Assembly (NCBI GenBank): GCA_902812465.1
Contig: CADDZE010000016.1
Coordinates: 1 to 64,000 of the forward strand
Direction of reading: 5' to 3'
Origin: Acidobacteriota bacterium
GTDB lineage: Bacteria; Acidobacteriota; Terriglobia; UBA7540
DNA length: 64,000 nucleotides
Positions 37,811 to 48,066 of the stretch are shown here, in pieces. The position numbers and the translations under genes are program-made. The stretch's first letter is position 1; each line of letters begins with the position of its first letter. Under the pieces are notes generated by a model. The model saw nothing but the letters and a program-made list of their open reading frames with translations. It ran no database searches and had not been told where the DNA came from.

Positions 37811-39058
37811 TTAAGCCCTGGCCAAAGGCATGCGGTAGCGAGGAAGCAGGAGCATTAAACTGGCCGCTCCGGCCATCGCGTATGCCAGGATCGTAAGCAG
37901 CGAAGTATAAGACCCTGTTGCATCGTAAGCGCGGCCGAGGATGACGGGCCCGAGTGCGCCGGCGATTGCGTAAAAGGTCCAGGTGAAGCCGTACAACGTC
38001 GAAAAGGACTCCAGCCCGAAGTAGCGTGTCAGCAGATAGGGGGTGATGTCCGCCTCCGAGCCCAGCCCGATTCCTATGCATATCGCGGCGGCGCAAGCAG
38101 TGGGAAGGGCCTTGAGCTGAGCCAGCAATAGGATGCCCACGGCGGCTAGCAGCGTAGTGCAGCAGGCGACCCGTGGCCCAAAGAAGCGATCCAGCAGCCA
38201 TCCGACCAGCAGTCGACTGCCTAGGCTGGAAGCACCCAGCATTGAGGCACAGAGAGCAGCATTCTGGCTGCTTATCCCGCGATCCGTGAGGAGTGCGACC
38301 ATCTGCGTGACCGCGCCGTTTAAACTGACTGAACCCACAAACAAGACCGCCACAATGATCCAGAAGGAGAAGGAGCGCAGCCCCTGGCGCCAAGGCACAT
38401 CGTCCTTCAGGCGTTCGCCTGCCGGCAACTGGCGCGGCTGGTATTCGCGAACGTAGCGCCATGCCAGCGGCAACCCTTGAATCAGCACCAGACTTCCCAG
38501 GGCCAGGTAAGCCGCGCGCCAGCCGGCCAGATTGATGAGGGCCTGAGCGATAAAGGGAAGGATCATCGCCCCAACTCCAGTACCGGCCATCACCAGCGCC
38601 AAGGCTACTCCCAGCCGGGCTGAAAACCAAGTTGAAACGGCCCGCGCATACCCCATCTGTGCGGTTCCGTTGCCGACCGCGCCGATCAGCAGGCACATGG
38701 CATAAAAATGCCAAAGGTGCGGGCTCAGCAAGGCCATGGAGGCCACACTCAGGCCAAAGATGGCTAGACAGGGAAGGACGATTCGACGAGGGCCATAACG
38801 GTCCAGCCAGCGGCCCAGCGTAGGAGAACAAAAGGCCAGGGTGAGGGCGGCAATCGCAAAACCACGGGAAATGGCTTCGCGGCTCCAGCCGAACTCTGAC
38901 GCCAGGGGCTTGACGAAAACGCTAAAAGTGAAGACGAACAGGCACCCGAACCCCACCATCACGCCGAGGCTTGAGGCCAACACCACGCGCCAGCCATAAT
39001 ATCCGCGATCGGATTCTACAACGGCGATCGAGGGTTCGCTGGTGGGGGTTACGATCAT
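37811..39058 (-). CDS. MFS transporter
   Basis: A 12-helix major facilitator superfamily transporter of about 415 residues, resembling oxalate:formate-type or monocarboxylate-type antiporters (YGWRVVLASSLGVMVGFG at the N-terminus, GRWLDRYGPRRIVLP between helices 2 and 3, GWLLDRFFGPRVA in the second half). The ATG at 39058 was chosen over 39112 because the earlier residues overlap the upstream gene with no family resemblance. The selenoprotein stop is 25 bases upstream, so they are likely co-transcribed. Substrate unknown. Confidence 0.88.
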   Translation of the reverse strand: MIVTPTSEPSIAVVESDRGYYGWRVVLASSLGVMVGFGCLFVFTFSVFVKPLASEFGWSREAISRGFAIAALTLAFCSPTLGRWLDRYGPRRIVLPCLAIFGLSVASMALLSPHLWHFYAMCLLIGAVGNGTAQMGYARAVSTWFSARLGVALALVMAGTGVGAMILPFIAQALINLAGWRAAYLALGSLVLIQGLPLAWRYVREYQPRQLPAGERLKDDVPWRQGLRSFSFWIIVAVLFVGSVSLNGAVTQMVALLTDRGISSQNAALCASMLGASSLGSRLLVGWLLDRFFGPRVACCTTLLAAVGILLLAQLKALPTACAAAICIGIGLGSEADITPYLLTRYFGLESFSTLYGFTWTFYAIAGALGPVILGRAYDATGSYTSLLTILAYAMAGAASLMLLLPRYRMPLARA

Positions 39059-39083
39059 GCCTGGTGGTGCACCGGACCCACTC

Positions 39084-39653
39084 TCAGCCTTCGCGTCCCA
39101 CCCCCAACGCATCGGCGACGCGATTGATGTAATTGAACCATGCCGCGATCAGTGTAATCTGCAGGATGGCCTTGTCGTCGAAGCCCGCTTGGCGCAGGCG
39201 CTCGTGGTGGGCCGGTGTAATCTTGGTGGCATCCTTAGTGAGCTGGACGACATAGTCCACCATGGCGCGCTCTGCCGCGGTGAGAGGCGCTTTCGTGTAG
39301 TCGGTCTCCAGCGCCCGAACCAGCTCTTCATCCAGTGTGACTCGACGCAGAAACTCTGCGTGCGATTCGATTCAATAGACACACCGGTTGGTGACGGAGA
39401 CCATCGTGGCGATCATTTCGTGCTGCCGGCGGCTCAGCGGAAGATCGGGCGACATCAGCGTGCCGAAGGTGGCGAACGCGTGGTAAAGAGCATCGGGAAT
39501 CAGGCTATGGGACTCGACGATCTGCGCTCCGCCCACATCTGTAGGGTGGGCGGGCGTGGCGTACTCGATCGGGTAGAGCTCCCGCTGCGATTCCATCGCA
39601 CGCCGCAACTTTTCGTCGGCCTCGGCCATCGGAATAGTCTTAATCCAAGCCAT
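39084..39653 (-). CDS. AhpD-like (carboxymuconolactone decarboxylase family) selenoprotein, in-frame UGA as Sec94
   Basis: AhpD-like proteins reduce peroxides through a CxxC...H active site. The frame from ATG 39653 reads 93 codons to a TGA at 39372-39374, then stays open for 95 more codons to the real stop at 39084-39086. Around the TGA it reads NRCVY-U-IESH, which places the UGA exactly at the second Cys of the family's E-x11-C-x2-C-x3-H motif (E79, C91, Sec94, H98). The segment after the UGA ([38 protein letters not shown]) is classic for this family, which argues against a random ORF. A SECIS-like hairpin follows. Alternatives are a nonsense mutation or sequencing error. Total length is 189 residues, normal for the family. 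Confidence 0.85.
39339..39374 (-). promoter_or_regulatory. SECIS-like stem-loop directly after the UGA
   Basis: On the coding (minus) strand, counting from the base after UGA, bases 11-16 (ACGCAG) pair with 22-27 (CUGCGU) around the loop AGUUU (17-21; 39351-39355). Below a bulged C, UCG (7-9) pairs with CGA (28-30), and GA (4-5) pairs with UC (32-33). The loop starts 17 bases after the UGA and has GU at its second and third positions, within the range expected of bacterial SECIS elements. Confidence 0.65.
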
Positions 39654-39759: not shown

Positions 39760-40134
39760 TCACTTTCCCGCCGCTTCCAATTTCTCGATGACGATAGCGC
39801 GGGAGCCGCCCTTCTCATACACGGTGCCCGTCACGCTGACGCGCGTCCCAGCAAAGGGAAGTAGCCTGTCATTCTGCCCGCTGGCTGGCTGCCCGCCGGA
39901 GATCGGCAGGTAAATGGTTCCGTTGTCTGCCTGAATTACTAGCGGCGAGCCTGCCCGGGCGCAAGCCACCGCGCACTCGGGGCTCACCGGCTTCTTGAGG
40001 TCTTTGGTGAAAGTACAGGAGGAGTCGATGACGTATCCGTGGATCGTCGCATGCTTGGCCGCCGCCCGAGCTTGGCCTACAGACATGGCTACGGACATCA
40101 TCACCGACAAGCCCGCAATTGCAAGGGGTCTCAT
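39760..40134 (-). CDS. small secreted protein of unknown function
   Basis: A 124-residue protein with a Sec signal (MRPLAIAGLSVMMSVAMSVG, cut after ARA) and a compact beta-rich domain. Two or three conserved-looking cysteines occur (IDSSCTFTKDL, SPECAVACARAG), followed by GTRVSVTGTVYEKGG, which resembles an OB strand pattern. It follows the TonB receptor by 34 bases with GAGGAG before the ATG, and precedes the selenoprotein by 106 bases. Similar proteins occur in Acidobacteriota to my knowledge; the function is unknown. Confidence 0.75.
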   Translation of the reverse strand: MRPLAIAGLSVMMSVAMSVGQARAAAKHATIHGYVIDSSCTFTKDLKKPVSPECAVACARAGSPLVIQADNGTIYLPISGGQPASGQNDRLLPFAGTRVSVTGTVYEKGGSRAIVIEKLEAAGK

Positions 40135-40168
40135 GGAGTGCTCCTCCTCGGTGTTTGACACTAGCTGT

Positions 40169-43100
40169 TCAAAATAAGAGCTTCAGCGCAAACTGAATCA
40201 GCCTGGGGGATAAAGCCTGCTGAATCTGTCCAAATGTTGGCGAACTGATGTCGCTCACCGGCAACCGGAAGTTTGTGCGATTGAACAAATTGAAGAACTC
40301 GGCGCGAAACTGGAGGCTCTTCGACTCGGCCAAAGGGATGTCTTTAAAAGCTGAGAAGTCCCATTGGGCAAGCCCCGGTCCCTCGACCACATTTCGCCCC
40401 TCGGTGCCGTAAACCCCAGCCGGCGTGGAGGAAAAATCAATCCGCCGAAACGCTTCCTTGTTGAACCATTCGGCCGGAGTCTTGGGGCCACGGTTGGGGC
40501 TAGCGACCAGATTGGGCCGGAACGCCGAGAAGCCAGTAATTTCGGGAGCATCGTAATTGAAACTCTGATCCAAGACGGTAAAAGGCGTACCGCTCATAAA
40601 TGTGGTAATGCCATTTACTTGCCAACGCCCCAGCAAATGTTGATACCAGCCCTGCGGCCGCCGCCAGAGTGGCAACTCCCATTGATAGCTCAGCACGAAG
40701 CGATGGCGGGCATCGAACAGGGACCGGCCTCGCTCGGCGGCTAGGTCGAAGGGATTCTGTGCCAGGTCATTCTCCCCTGCAACCGGCTGCGATGCCGACC
40801 CTGTGATGTTGAACGACGAAACGTCGTCGATAGTTTTCGAGAAGGTGTAGGAAGCGAGAAATGATAGCTCATGGCTGAAGCGCTTCCGCAGGCTTGCCTC
40901 GAGAGCATTATATGACGAGTTGGCCACGCCGGAAATAAGGCCAGCGGAGCTGTAGGTGCAGTTGCCCCCCAACGTCGGCATGCAGTACAGACGCTGTCTG
41001 TCGATATTCTGTTGCTGTTCGGACCAAGTCTGGCCGGCCAGCGGCACGGACGGATTCCCTTCGACGAAGCGTGGCAGCTTCGTCCCTTTGGTTCCCACGT
41101 AACCAATCTCAAACAGCCAGTCCGCCCCAAACGATTTCTCCACGTTCAGATCCCAATCTTGCGCGTAGGGTAGGCGCAGGTGGGGATCAAGCGTCAGGAG
41201 CGTCATAGGGGTCGAGAACCGCCTCGCGAAGGGATTGCCGTTGGCAAAGGGATTTGAGAGGCTTCCGGGAAACATCACCTGCGGCGTCCGGAGGTAGGGC
41301 GGCGCGCTAATGGGTGTTTGCAGGGGGCCGCCCTGCCCATTGTAGTAAGGATCGTAAAAGATGCCGTAAGCGGCAGTCACCAGCCATCGTGCACCGCCGG
41401 TGGGATCCCAGGCAAGCCCCAAGCGGGGCGCCACAGCACGTTTTTCCGCCGGAATCAAACCCCCCGGTACCCCCGGGTCACCGGGATAGAGAAGGCCAAC
41501 TGGCGCGTCTGGCATCACTCGGGATTGGGCGCCGGGCTCAAACAGGTTCTGGCGGTTGCGGATCTCCGTGTAAGGGAAGGGCAACTCATAGCGCAGTCCA
41601 ACATTGAGGGTCAAGCGTGGATTGACCCGGAAGCTATCCTGGGAATAGAAGTCGAAGGCGTTCCCGCGCAAGCCGCGTGATAGATCGCCGCTTCCATCGG
41701 GTTGGTCACCGCCGCCTTGGAGGAAGAGCAGCGGCTGGCCGACCAGGAAGCTGGCAAAGGCATTGCTAATCGGGAACGGTATGAAGACGAAAAACCCGTT
41801 GGAGGCAATCCCCTGCACCGCGTTGATCTGATCGCGGCGGTAATCGGCGCCAAATTTCACGTCATGCCGGCCGCGGATCCAGGTGAGGGAGTTCGAGGTG
41901 GCAAACGCATTTTCGTAGGTGTTGCGCGGGCCGGTAATCGGGTCTCCGATGCTGGCGTACCCGCCACCCCCAAACTGGATGAAAGGTGGGCCTGCTGCCA
42001 CGTCCAGTGTGGGTCGGTACCGGAATCCAAGCGATGCGGGTAGCGTTTTATTGAGGTGTTCGTCAAACAGGAACTTGTGGCGTAGGACGGTGAAGCGGGT
42101 GATTCCCACTAACGACGGAGAAAAGGTATGCGTCAGCTGCGCGACGAAGTTCTGCGTTCGGCGATCCTCGCCCACCGGGAAGCCCGGTACCCCAGCACCG
42201 TCTGGAGAGAGCGGATCGAAGCGAGAGCCATTCAGGAACATGTAACGCAGGTTCAGCGTGTCGTTGGAAGAAAGATAATGGTCCAGCCGAACCCCAAACT
42301 GGTCGTCACTGTTTCGCAGCACCTGGGTGGCGTTGTATAGATCGAGCACTCCCTCAGAATCGGCGGCATTGGGGAGCGGATAGAGTTTCACGACGTTGGC
42401 GGCGGTGGGGTCGATAAACGGAAGTGTATCGCCTGCGAACTCTACGGGCGGCTGGCTGCAGGCGGGCGGATCCGGGCAGAGGTTGAGCAAGGGGCCGTCC
42501 TGGGAGAAGTTGCCTAGGCGCTCCTCGAGTGAGGGTACGCGGACATGGTGGATGCTTTCGCCCTGACGATTGCGAAAGCCTTCGTAGTAGCCGAAGAAGA
42601 AGGTCCTATCCTTGCGAATGGGTCCGCCCAGGGTGCCGCCAAACTGGTTCTGCCGGTACTCGGACTTCTGGAAGCCATCCGCGTTTTCAAAGAAGTTAGC
42701 CGCGTCGAGCTTATCGTTCCGCAGGAACTCCCAGACGGAGCCGTGAAGCTGATTGGAACCGGACCGGGTAACGATGTTGGTGGTCGATCCCGCGTTGCTA
42801 CCGAATTCAGCATTGGCGCCATGCGTCAGAATCCTGAACTCGGCGATCGCGTCGATGGGAGGCTTCAACACGAAGCCCCCGTCCACTGCGTTGACGTTGG
42901 ACGCCCCGTCGATGAGGAAGTTGTTCGATTCCGGACGCTGCCCATTGACCGCGTACGCCTGGCCTTCGCGTGGTGAGCCGCCCGCCTGGGCCAGGCCCGG
43001 CGTGATGGGTACTACGCCAGGCTGCAGCAGGGCTAATTGGGAGAAGTTACGGCCGTTGAGCGGCAGGTCGAGTATCTCCCGCTCGCCTACCGTCTTACCC

Positions 43101-43513
43101 AGCGTGGTATTCCCGGTTTCGATCAAGGGGGCGTTGGCGGTAACCTCGACGGATTCCGTCGCTAAGCCTACGGAAAGATGGATCGGAACCGTGGCTGCCT
43201 CGTTGACGCCCAGCGTGATGCCTTCCTGTAGGTACTTCCTGAAACCGGGCGCCACTGCCTCCAACCGGTAATGACCAACCGGCAGGAGCACCAGTAGGTA
43301 GTTTCCCTCGGAATCGCTCTCGACCGTCCGAGCCAATCCCGTTTCGAGGTGAACCACCGAAATCTGGGCATGGGCCACGCGCCCGCCGCTCGGGTCCACG
43401 ACCGTACCGCGGATACTCCCCGTGACTTCCTGGGCATAGGCGGGTGCCAAGAGCAGAAAGATCCCGATCAGCTGCAGGTGGAGAAACCAGCGTCGTGATG
43501 GCGGCTTAAACAT
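40169..43513 (-). CDS. TonB-dependent receptor with carboxypeptidase regulatory-like domain
   Basis: A 1,114-residue outer-membrane receptor. After the signal peptide (about 1-27), a carboxypeptidase-regulatory-like domain (TGSIRGTVVDPSGGRVAHAQ to about residue 110) is followed by a plug domain with LPLNGRNFSQLALLQPGVV and FLIDGASNVNAVDGGF, then a large beta barrel ending in aromatic-terminal FALKLLF. This architecture is typical of the expanded receptor family of Acidobacteriota. The ligand is not evident; no TonB/ExbB or PUL genes adjoin. It heads a minus-strand cluster with the secreted protein, the selenoprotein and the MFS transporter. Confidence 0.93.
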   Translation of the reverse strand: MFKPPSRRWFLHLQLIGIFLLLAPAYAQEVTGSIRGTVVDPSGGRVAHAQISVVHLETGLARTVESDSEGNYLLVLLPVGHYRLEAVAPGFRKYLQEGITLGVNEAATVPIHLSVGLATESVEVTANAPLIETGNTTLGKTVGEREILDLPLNGRNFSQLALLQPGVVPITPGLAQAGGSPREGQAYAVNGQRPESNNFLIDGASNVNAVDGGFVLKPPIDAIAEFRILTHGANAEFGSNAGSTTNIVTRSGSNQLHGSVWEFLRNDKLDAANFFENADGFQKSEYRQNQFGGTLGGPIRKDRTFFFGYYEGFRNRQGESIHHVRVPSLEERLGNFSQDGPLLNLCPDPPACSQPPVEFAGDTLPFIDPTAANVVKLYPLPNAADSEGVLDLYNATQVLRNSDDQFGVRLDHYLSSNDTLNLRYMFLNGSRFDPLSPDGAGVPGFPVGEDRRTQNFVAQLTHTFSPSLVGITRFTVLRHKFLFDEHLNKTLPASLGFRYRPTLDVAAGPPFIQFGGGGYASIGDPITGPRNTYENAFATSNSLTWIRGRHDVKFGADYRRDQINAVQGIASNGFFVFIPFPISNAFASFLVGQPLLFLQGGGDQPDGSGDLSRGLRGNAFDFYSQDSFRVNPRLTLNVGLRYELPFPYTEIRNRQNLFEPGAQSRVMPDAPVGLLYPGDPGVPGGLIPAEKRAVAPRLGLAWDPTGGARWLVTAAYGIFYDPYYNGQGGPLQTPISAPPYLRTPQVMFPGSLSNPFANGNPFARRFSTPMTLLTLDPHLRLPYAQDWDLNVEKSFGADWLFEIGYVGTKGTKLPRFVEGNPSVPLAGQTWSEQQQNIDRQRLYCMPTLGGNCTYSSAGLISGVANSSYNALEASLRKRFSHELSFLASYTFSKTIDDVSSFNITGSASQPVAGENDLAQNPFDLAAERGRSLFDARHRFVLSYQWELPLWRRPQGWYQHLLGRWQVNGITTFMSGTPFTVLDQSFNYDAPEITGFSAFRPNLVASPNRGPKTPAEWFNKEAFRRIDFSSTPAGVYGTEGRNVVEGPGLAQWDFSAFKDIPLAESKSLQFRAEFFNLFNRTNFRLPVSDISSPTFGQIQQALSPRLIQFALKLLF

Positions 43514-45153: not shown

Positions 45154-48066
45154 TTAGCCCAGCGCTTCCTGGATTGCCTCGTTCAGCCGCGCCAACCCTG
45201 CCGCCACGTCCGGACCCAAATGCACGCGTAGCGCGCGGCGGTTCCGTTCTGCCAAAACCTGGAAGTCCCCCCGCGCTTGGGCGGCTTTGACGACGCCGAA
45301 GGTGTACTTCTGTCCCGGCACCGGCAAATCGTGAGCATCCTCGCAGGTCACCTGCAGGAAGACGCCGGTGTTTGGCCCCCCTTTATAAGCCTGCCCGGTC
45401 GAATGCAGGAATCGTGGACCGAACCCAAGGCAGGTGGCGACGTGCTTCCTGTTGCGGATGACGTGCCGCGCCTTTTGTAGCAAAGCTTCATGGGGCGCGT
45501 TCATGTGGACGTAAGCGAGCAAAGCGAAGTAGTCGCCGGGCTGCAAACGGTTCAATTGGGCTCGGAGATATCCCCGCAAGGAAGTGTCCTGACCCGCCGC
45601 CTGCTTCAGCGCGGCGGCGTTGCGCTCGTCGGCAAAAAGGGCGATGTCGTCTTCCTGATGCATCGGCTCTTCGGGCGGCAGCGCGCCCGTCCGCTCGTAT
45701 TCGGCCGTCAGCTTGCGCGTCGCCACTTTACTGGCTTCAACGTCCGGCTGGTTGAACGGATTGATGCCGAGAATCGAGCCGGCCAGGGCAGTGGCGATCT
45801 CCCAGCGGAAAAACTCGCGCCCCAGGTCGTAGACGTCTTCCAGGGCGATGCGCACCACGGGCTGGCCCGCCCTCTCGAGCGCTTCGATAGCACGATCCTG
45901 TGCGGGATCGGGCGCATGCTCGAGGCGTGTGTAGACGAAGACGCGATCGTTGCCGTACACTTCGGGTGGCCCAAGCTCCTCGCGATCGACAGGAATCAGC
46001 CCCCGGCCATCCTTGCCCGTCGACTCCGCCAGAAGCTGTTCGCACCACGCACCGAGATCGCTGACACCCGGTGAGTTCACGAGCGTCACCTTGTTGCGGC
46101 CCTGAAGCGCCAGCGCCCCCAGCACGCAGCCCAAACGCGCGCCGGGATTGTCTTCGACGGGCACGCACGAGCTGCAGGAGTAGACCATCACCTCGGCGTT
46201 GTCGAGAAACCGGGGCACCTCAATGCCCATTACCGCGGCGGGGACCATGCCGAAGTTCGAGAGCGCTGAGTAGCGCCCGCCGATGCTCGGCACGCCAAAG
46301 AAGATGTGGTGGAAGCGGTCGCTTTCGGCCACCTGCTGCAGCTTGGACCCGGGATCGGTGATAGCGATGAACCGGGTGCCCACTTCCGCATCACCCACCA
46401 CCTGGCGGGCGCGTTCGAAGAAATATTGCTTAAAGATGTTGGGCTCCAGCGTGCTGCCGGACTTGCTCGAGACGATAAAAAGCGTCTTGGCCAGGTCAAT
46501 GCGGTCTTCGAAAGCCCGAATCTGCGCCGGATCGGTCGAATCCAGCACGTGAAGTTCGGGATAGCCGGGCAGCACGCCAAAGGTCATCCGAAGGACTTCC
46601 GGGCAGAGGCTCGACCCGCCCATGCCCAGCAGCAAGGCATGGCGGAAGCCCGCCCCTTTCACTTCCTCGGCAAGGCCAGTCAACAGCTGCGTGTGTCCCA
46701 ACTGGTCCAGGGTCACGTCGAGCCAGCCCAGCCAGTTGCCTTCATCGGTGCCCGTCCAGAGTGAGGCGTCGCGCCCCCAAAGGCGGCGTACTTTTCCTTT
46801 CACGCGGCAGTCTTCGAGTGCCTCGGCGACCGCCGACGCCTGAGGCGGTGCCAAGGTATAGGTCTGGCGGTCTTTGCGGCCGCTAGGCGGAACCTTGCAC
46901 ATGGTATCGAGGGCGTTCAGCAGCTTGTCAAAGGCGTCGGAGAAGAGGCGGACGGCTTCCTTCAGGAGCTGGTCGGTGACCTCCTTCATCGAAATACCGA
47001 CTTGCTCGAGCGTCTTCATGGTGTCGTGCGCTTCCTCGAGGTCTTCCTCCAGACTCAGGCGCACGCGGCCGTGGTCGCGGAACGCTTCGAGCGTGGACAT
47101 CGGCAGGGTGTTGACAGTGTCAGGACCGATGAGTTCCTCAACATACAGTACGTCGCGGTATTTCGGATTCTTGGTGCTGGTGCTGGCCCACAGCAGGCGT
47201 TGCGTCTGAGCGCCGCGGGCGGCCAAGGCCTGCCAGCGGCGACGGGATATCATTTCCTTGTAGCGCTGATAGGCCAGCTTGGCATTGGCGATGGCCACCT
47301 TGCCCAGGAGGCTGCGCAGCAGAGCGCTCTCACCGGCACTGGCTGAACTTTCCAGCCGCTTTGTCACCAGGGAGTCCACCAGCGAGTCAATGCGGCTGAC
47401 GAAAAAGCTCGCCACGCTGGCCACTTTGCTGGGATCGCCGCCGCGCGCTACCAGCTTCTCCAGGCCGGCCATGTAAGCTTCGGCCACACGCTCGTACTTC
47501 TCCTGCGCGAAGAGCAGGGTAACGTTGACGTTGATGCCCTCGCTGATCGCCTGCTCGATGGCCGGCACACCTTCATCCGTGCCGGGAATCTTGATCATCA
47601 CGTTTTCCCGCCCCACCGCCTGCCAGAGCCGCCGCGCTTCCTTAACGGTTGTCTCCGTCTCGTGGGCGTAATAGGGCGACACTTCAAGGCTCACGTAACC
47701 GTCGCGCCGCCGGGTCCGCTCGTAGACTGGCTGCAGCACATCTGCGGCCGCCTGGATGTCGGGAATTGCCAGGCGCTCATAAATCGTGTTCGGATCCAGC
47801 CCCTTCTCTGCGTAGAGTTCGGCGAGGGCGTCCGAGTAGTCCGTGCTGCCCGCGATAGCCTTCTCGAAGATAGAGGGATTCGAGGTGACGCCGCGCAAGC
47901 CGTCTTCCTCAATCAGCTGCTTCAGCTCGCCACTGGTGATCAAGCTACGCCGGATATAGTCCAGCCAGATGGACTGGCCCAGCTGCTCGAGCGCCTTCAG
48001 CGGATTCCTCGGAACCCCCTTCGCCTGCGGCGCGGCGACAGTCGTGCTCTGCCCTGAAGTACTCAT
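45154..48066 (-). CDS. bifunctional transaldolase / glucose-6-phosphate isomerase
   Basis: A 970-residue fusion. The N-terminal half (about 1-370) is a transaldolase (IWLDYIRRSLITSGEL, GVTSNPSIFEKAI, Schiff-base Lys in MIKIPGTDEG near residue 155, RLLWASTSTKNPKY). The C-terminal part (about 440-920) is a phosphoglucose isomerase (HALLLGMGGSSLCPEVLR, FIVSSKSGSTLEPN, GGRYSALSNFGMVPAA). It links the non-oxidative pentose phosphate pathway and glycolysis. rpiB is 49 bases upstream on the same strand. The fusion is known in Acidobacteriota, Cyanobacteria and others. Confidence 0.95.
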   Translation of the reverse strand: MSTSGQSTTVAAPQAKGVPRNPLKALEQLGQSIWLDYIRRSLITSGELKQLIEEDGLRGVTSNPSIFEKAIAGSTDYSDALAELYAEKGLDPNTIYERLAIPDIQAAADVLQPVYERTRRRDGYVSLEVSPYYAHETETTVKEARRLWQAVGRENVMIKIPGTDEGVPAIEQAISEGINVNVTLLFAQEKYERVAEAYMAGLEKLVARGGDPSKVASVASFFVSRIDSLVDSLVTKRLESSASAGESALLRSLLGKVAIANAKLAYQRYKEMISRRRWQALAARGAQTQRLLWASTSTKNPKYRDVLYVEELIGPDTVNTLPMSTLEAFRDHGRVRLSLEEDLEEAHDTMKTLEQVGISMKEVTDQLLKEAVRLFSDAFDKLLNALDTMCKVPPSGRKDRQTYTLAPPQASAVAEALEDCRVKGKVRRLWGRDASLWTGTDEGNWLGWLDVTLDQLGHTQLLTGLAEEVKGAGFRHALLLGMGGSSLCPEVLRMTFGVLPGYPELHVLDSTDPAQIRAFEDRIDLAKTLFIVSSKSGSTLEPNIFKQYFFERARQVVGDAEVGTRFIAITDPGSKLQQVAESDRFHHIFFGVPSIGGRYSALSNFGMVPAAVMGIEVPRFLDNAEVMVYSCSSCVPVEDNPGARLGCVLGALALQGRNKVTLVNSPGVSDLGAWCEQLLAESTGKDGRGLIPVDREELGPPEVYGNDRVFVYTRLEHAPDPAQDRAIEALERAGQPVVRIALEDVYDLGREFFRWEIATALAGSILGINPFNQPDVEASKVATRKLTAEYERTGALPPEEPMHQEDDIALFADERNAAALKQAAGQDTSLRGYLRAQLNRLQPGDYFALLAYVHMNAPHEALLQKARHVIRNRKHVATCLGFGPRFLHSTGQAYKGGPNTGVFLQVTCEDAHDLPVPGQKYTFGVVKAAQARGDFQVLAERNRRALRVHLGPDVAAGLARLNEAIQEALG

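Follow-up and report, generated by a model that had tools for sequence, protein, structure and literature searches.

An AhpD-like gene of an acidobacterial genome that very probably encodes a selenoprotein with Sec at the second active-site cysteine position

The minus-strand AhpD-like gene described here, located in the window, i.e., in the whole stretch of 64,000 nucleotides of acidobacterial DNA that was analysed, is almost certainly a working selenoprotein gene, the product of which is predicted to be an enzyme of the AhpD/CMD fold with hydroperoxide chemistry as its most likely activity. That the gene encodes a selenoprotein had been claimed in a first-pass annotation, and this claim is supported by (i) the TGA codon found at the same site in homologues, (ii) a tRNA-Sec together with sel genes in the same genome and (iii) a conserved SECIS hairpin. 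AhpD-like selenoproteins with a CxxU motif are an established family known since 2005, and the kind is hence not new: 27 sequences of COG2128, accompanied by SECIS elements, were reported from a Sargasso Sea survey in 2005 (PMC1088965), further members from sequenced bacteria in 2006 (PMC1794560) and 299 from the GOS survey in 2008 (PMC2398784), while a review of 2026 carries the entry 'AhpD-like protein, TIGR01926, CxxU' (PMC13188914). The first-pass statement that such proteins had been reported before is thereby borne out. The gene shares with the COG2128/TIGR01926 CxxU selenoproteins the family model, Sec as the second residue of the redox pair and a SECIS directly downstream of the UGA. 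It differs from them in its source, as the surveys covered mainly marine metagenomes whereas the gene stems from a soil-type acidobacterial genome, and in belonging to a close subfamily which is almost wholly of the Sec type.

Reading frame and family assignment

The gene starts with an ATG at 39653-39651 (minus strand), proceeds through 93 codons to the internal TGA at 39374-39372 and continues for 95 codons, its terminator being likewise a TGA (39086-39084). The internal TGA and the family-like codons beyond it, as noted in the first-pass annotation, were confirmed, whereby the coding strand was identified as the minus strand and homology to TIGR01926/CMD proteins was found on both sides of the codon. 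The further claim that the UGA takes the place of the second Cys of the CxxC-x3-H site held up in the homologue alignment, where either Cys or Sec occupies position 94 and no chain ends, and the predicted truncation by gene callers is seen directly, as the standard ORF list gives an ORF of exactly 93 residues. On the plus strand, 39084-39653 also holds an open frame, which was dropped as it contains neither a CxxC nor a CxxU motif. The site of the 189-residue product reads NR-C91-VY-U94-IES-H98 (NRCVY-U-IESHAEF). The features of the gene and its neighbourhood are collected in Table 1.

Table 1. Positions of the AhpD-like gene, its predicted functional elements and its neighbours within the window
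Feature	Position	Strand	Remarks
Selenoprotein gene (predicted), AhpD-like / TIGR01926 'peroxidase-related enzyme'	39084..39653	-	189 aa, Sec at residue 94
In-frame UGA, codon 94, predicted to be read as Sec (U94)	39372..39374	-	Corresponds to second Cys of CxxC-x3-H
Cys91 codon, first Cys of CxxU, probably resolving	39381..39383	-	Nearly invariant in alignment
His98 codon, active-site His	39360..39362	-	Invariant in alignment
Glu79 codon, proton-relay Glu	39417..39419	-	Invariant column; equals Glu118 of M. tuberculosis AhpD
SECIS hairpin ACGCAGA-GUU-UCUGCGU	39345..39361	-	7-bp stem, 3-nt loop, first loop base G
Upstream neighbour, secreted-looking, no Pfam family	39760..40161	-	133 aa
Upstream neighbour, Oar-type TonB-dependent outer-membrane receptor (CarboxypepD_reg + OMP_b-brl_4)	40169..43513	-	
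Downstream neighbour, MFS_1 transporter	37811..39112	-	Called start overlaps 3' end of selenoprotein gene by 29 bases

The protein scores 119.2 bits against TIGR01926 over residues 49-185, a match which spans the TGA and exceeds the curated cut-off of 81.8, and 52 bits against PF02627 over residues 56-113. The features of TIGR01926 members, i.e., the redox motif (here CxxU) with the upstream Glu and the all-helical AhpD fold, were found as well. The classical AhpD model TIGR00777 reached 24.7 bits, far from its cut-off of 191.95. For two (seleno)protein families to which the protein is related by superfamily, namely NF041238 (AhpD-related (seleno)protein, CFYUT) and NF053654 (YciW-related (seleno)protein), the scores were 67.1 bits (cut-off 175) and 40 bits (cut-off 310) respectively, and as these are far below both cut-offs, the protein lies outside of the two families.

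Conservation of the TGA codon

By itself, an open frame past a TGA is weak evidence, since such frames are common in a window of 62.5% GC: a run of 95 codons without a stop is expected after a stop codon with a chance of about 6%, and 88 TGA codons within the window are flanked on either side by 60 or more open codons, 31 of these TGA codons preceding a hairpin that, as a single sequence, passes SECIS-like rules. One such long read-through candidate (57292, minus strand) has a strong hairpin and no Pfam match, and looks like a product of chance. Support for Sec has therefore to come from homology, and the TGA of the AhpD-like gene is raised above the chance level by homology on both of its sides and by the presence of the same TGA in close homologues.

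As sources of homologues, 80 contigs from other species and 297 genomes belonging to this phylum were used. Among 112 aligned homologous stretches, TGA occupies the site in 109 and TGC in three; among the approximately 100 homologues with 63-88% identity, TGA is present in all but two, Cys (TGC) being confined to L051 and L119. In-frame UGA aligned with the redox Cys of homologues, a hallmark of bacterial selenoproteins, is hence what the alignment revealed. According to the record titles, the TGA form spans Acidobacteriota, Gemmatimonadota, Latescibacterota, Zixibacteria, KSB1 and Planctomycetes, and since it was found independently in many other assemblies, the codon is no read error. Within the alignment the columns of E79, Y93, C/U94 and H98 are invariant and that of C91 nearly so, and in the aligned set no homologue was found to end at position 94. 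Synonymous change by far exceeds amino-acid change on both sides of the TGA (dN/dS-type ratio about 0.03-0.17), documenting purifying selection on both halves of the gene.

The SECIS hairpin

Published rules for the bacterial SECIS demand a stem of 4-16 bp, a loop of 3-9 nt with a G within its first two positions, a distance of 16-37 nt between UGA and loop and a minimum free energy of at most -7.5 kcal/mol (PMC13188914). The hairpin downstream of codon 94, the loop of which lies 17 nt past the UGA and the energy of which amounts to about -12.9 to -14.1 kcal/mol, agrees with all of them. The six codons that encode it show one and the same synonymous choice in 94-100% of the approximately 100 close homologues, whereas the average over 78 conserved codons outside of the hairpin is 58% (p = 2.5e-5). 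In distant members of the family the stem persists with altered bases, pairing being maintained by compensatory changes: at pair 17-27, 17 sequences have G-C and 12 have C-G, and at pair 20-24, 19 have A-U and 5 have C-G. Stem cells of the distant members are paired in 87.8% of cases, as opposed to 80.0% upon shuffling, and none of 500 shuffles was as good as the stem in pairing and covariation score, nor did any slid version come close; double changes are seen in two pairs, a count which itself does not exceed that of the shuffles. As the amino acids encoded in this region are partly constrained too, what is informative here is the frozen synonymous choice together with the covariation. A search of Rfam over the SECIS region returned no match. 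The conserved hairpin, which had not been part of the first-pass annotation, adds direct evidence for the mechanism of Sec decoding.

Sec machinery of the genome

The source assembly is a draft of 3.9 Mb in 190 contigs (98.6% complete, with contamination estimated at 4.2%), in which the sel genes reside on contigs other than that of the AhpD-like gene. A search for selA, selB, selC and selD, which the first-pass annotation had proposed, found the set to be complete: tRNA-Sec(UCA) on contig C49 (73 bits; classified by ARAGORN as SeC, anticodon tca), selB on C116 (370 bits), selA on C44 (576 bits) and selD, with an in-frame TGA of its own, on C42 (383 bits), all of them above curated cut-offs. 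Across the 297 genomes of the phylum, selA was identified in 66 of the 71 that possess a TGA-bearing family member and in 125 of the 226 others (Fisher p = 7e-10, with kinship being ignored). The five TGA-bearing genomes without a selA match comprise three that are 72-75% complete and two that are 91% complete. At E 1e-50, selA was also not found in G299 and G302, the genomes of the TGA-bearing homologues L072 and L033, which probably reflects incomplete bins or binning errors.

Alternative readings of the internal TGA

That the TGA arose by mutation or misreading of a Cys codon in a recently dead or mis-assembled gene has practically no chance of being correct: the genome is a draft and TGA is one base away from both TGC and TGT, but the same TGA recurs across several phyla in approximately 100 independent assemblies, which refutes this explanation, and selection downstream of the TGA, the frozen SECIS and the complete Sec machinery speak against it as well. 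Equally improbable, to a degree that it may be set aside, is a true stop, yielding either a short protein of 93 residues or a fission into two adjacent ORFs. The 93-residue ORF of the standard list would fit such a stop, yet not one homologue ends there, the family profiles continue across the site, and the catalytic His98 and the remainder of the helical fold are encoded only after it. An open frame through a TGA would also result from a genome-wide reassignment of UGA to another amino acid, so that residue 94 would not be Sec; this is exceedingly unlikely, given that the terminator of the gene is itself a TGA, that the adjacent genes look ordinary with translation table 11 and that the in-frame TGAs observed in conserved genes coincide with established Sec sites, namely those of SelD, deiodinase-like and CMD proteins. 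Decoding of codon 94 as Sec is hence the preferred reading.

Cys homologues and the ancestry of Sec

Within the close subfamily Sec is the rule and Cys the exception. In L051, which belongs to a Latescibacterota genome with selA, the site is TGC and the SECIS hairpin CACGCAGAGTTTCTGCGT (L051:4280-4330) is nevertheless retained letter for letter. The natural reading, and a likely one, is that of a fossil SECIS left behind by a recent change from Sec to Cys, while the TGC may also be a single-base error of that assembly. The other Cys homologue, L119, stems from a genome without selA and has lost the first Cys too (TRYC). In a quick tree the two Cys forms are placed among the Sec forms at two separate, weakly supported positions. 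It is suggested, with some reservation, that Sec is probably ancestral and nearly universal in this AhpD-like subfamily, the members of which come from bacteria of six or more phyla, mostly from soil and freshwater or groundwater, Cys forms being rare later replacements of which L051 would be one.

Fold, active site and proposed mechanism

The AlphaFold2 model of the 189-residue protein is all-helical (pLDDT 90.7), and its top fold matches are the D. radiodurans AhpD 6k40 and the peroxidase-related proteins 2prr, 3c1l, 2pfx and 2oyo (TM about 0.8), the same set being returned by a sequence-profile search. These share the site E-x11-C-x2-(C/U)-x3-H, possess Cys where the protein described here has Sec, and are 25-28% identical to it. 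The M. tuberculosis AhpD (1gu9, 1knc) belongs to a different family model (TIGR00777) and is a weaker fold match (TM about 0.5). Its relay was assigned to Glu118, Cys130, His132, Cys133 and His137, and that of P. aeruginosa PA0269, which reduces H2O2, to Glu36, Cys48, Tyr50, Cys51 and His55 (PMC3141380). By spacing, Glu118, Cys130, Cys133 and His137 correspond to Glu79, Cys91, Sec94 and His98, with U94 as the counterpart of Cys133 and with Glu79 at the same distances from C91, U94 and H98 as in AhpD (PMC3141380), whereas His132 is replaced by Tyr93, as it is in PA0269. From this common spacing it follows that Sec would replace the second active-site Cys, beside the relay His.

The suggested mechanism assumes that SelB, bound to the hairpin just 3' of UGA-94, delivers Sec-tRNA(Sec), which would be made by SelA with selenophosphate coming from SelD, and that translation then proceeds past UGA-94 to yield the full 189-residue protein. 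Sec94 would most likely attack a hydroperoxide or a similar electrophile, subsequently Cys91 would resolve it as a selenenylsulfide, and a cellular dithiol would re-reduce the latter. Peroxidase chemistry is thus proposed on the grounds of family, motif and modelled fold, and a greater reactivity is what Sec may be expected to confer to the site. Another chemistry of the selenoprotein, i.e., that of a selenol-dependent disulfide/dithiol adaptor or a Bmp8-like reductive dehalogenation, is considered unlikely but deserves serious attention; it competes with the enzymatic part of the proposal only, Sec decoding being common to both. Proteins of the CMD fold are functionally mixed, as the M. tuberculosis AhpD serves AhpC as an adaptor (PMC3141380) and the debrominase Bmp8 is found among the weaker fold matches (TM about 0.73), and the gene context is kept only among near relatives. 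Against this stand the best fold and sequence matches, all of which are peroxidase-related or AhpD proteins, and the finding that every proton-relay position is filled. Hydroperoxide chemistry therefore remains the preferred assignment.

Gene neighbourhood and further selenoprotein candidates

A conserved functional context was sought in 80 relatives, where the TonB receptor, the small secreted protein and the MFS transporter were found to adjoin the gene in near relatives only: a close homologue of the receptor does so in the nearest ones, and a protein similar to the 133-residue one occurs within 4 kb in L018 and L064 alone. As these neighbours are common to the closest relatives only, they reveal no operon function and little about the substrate. 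Elsewhere in the window (45154-48066, minus strand), a 970-residue ORF looks, from its translation, like a transaldolase-glucose-6-phosphate isomerase fusion.

Other selenoproteins of the source genome were sought by named families. L134 (C5:4301-4801, TGA at L134:1627) is a candidate deiodinase-like selenoprotein (PF00837, 96.9 bits) with an N-terminal stretch resembling a membrane anchor and the motifs GSHT-U-PPF and YIQEAHPADGW; in the relatives L017 and L022 a deiodinase-like ORF is located upstream of the AhpD-like gene. L161 (C9:29837-30073, minus strand) is a second CMD-family candidate with the motif GCPF-U-MDIG and a hairpin-like sequence past its TGA, and selD (L130, C42:3121-4047) is a selenoprotein gene itself (AAG-U-AAK), corresponding to the known Sec-containing form of SelD. 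In a relative, a second AhpD-like gene with an internal TGA (L064:5978-6376, NHCPF-U-TKYH) follows the close homologue at a distance of 1.7 kb on its downstream side, adjoining homologues of the small secreted protein and of the MFS transporter.

Significance

Automatic gene callers would end the enzyme at residue 93 and thereby lose half of it, a clear and correctable annotation error. The gene enlarges the selenoproteome of uncultured soil Acidobacteriota. Its family, dominated by Sec, also offers a clean case in which to ask why Sec is retained, as its SECIS is deeply conserved and a likely fossil of it lies behind a Cys codon.
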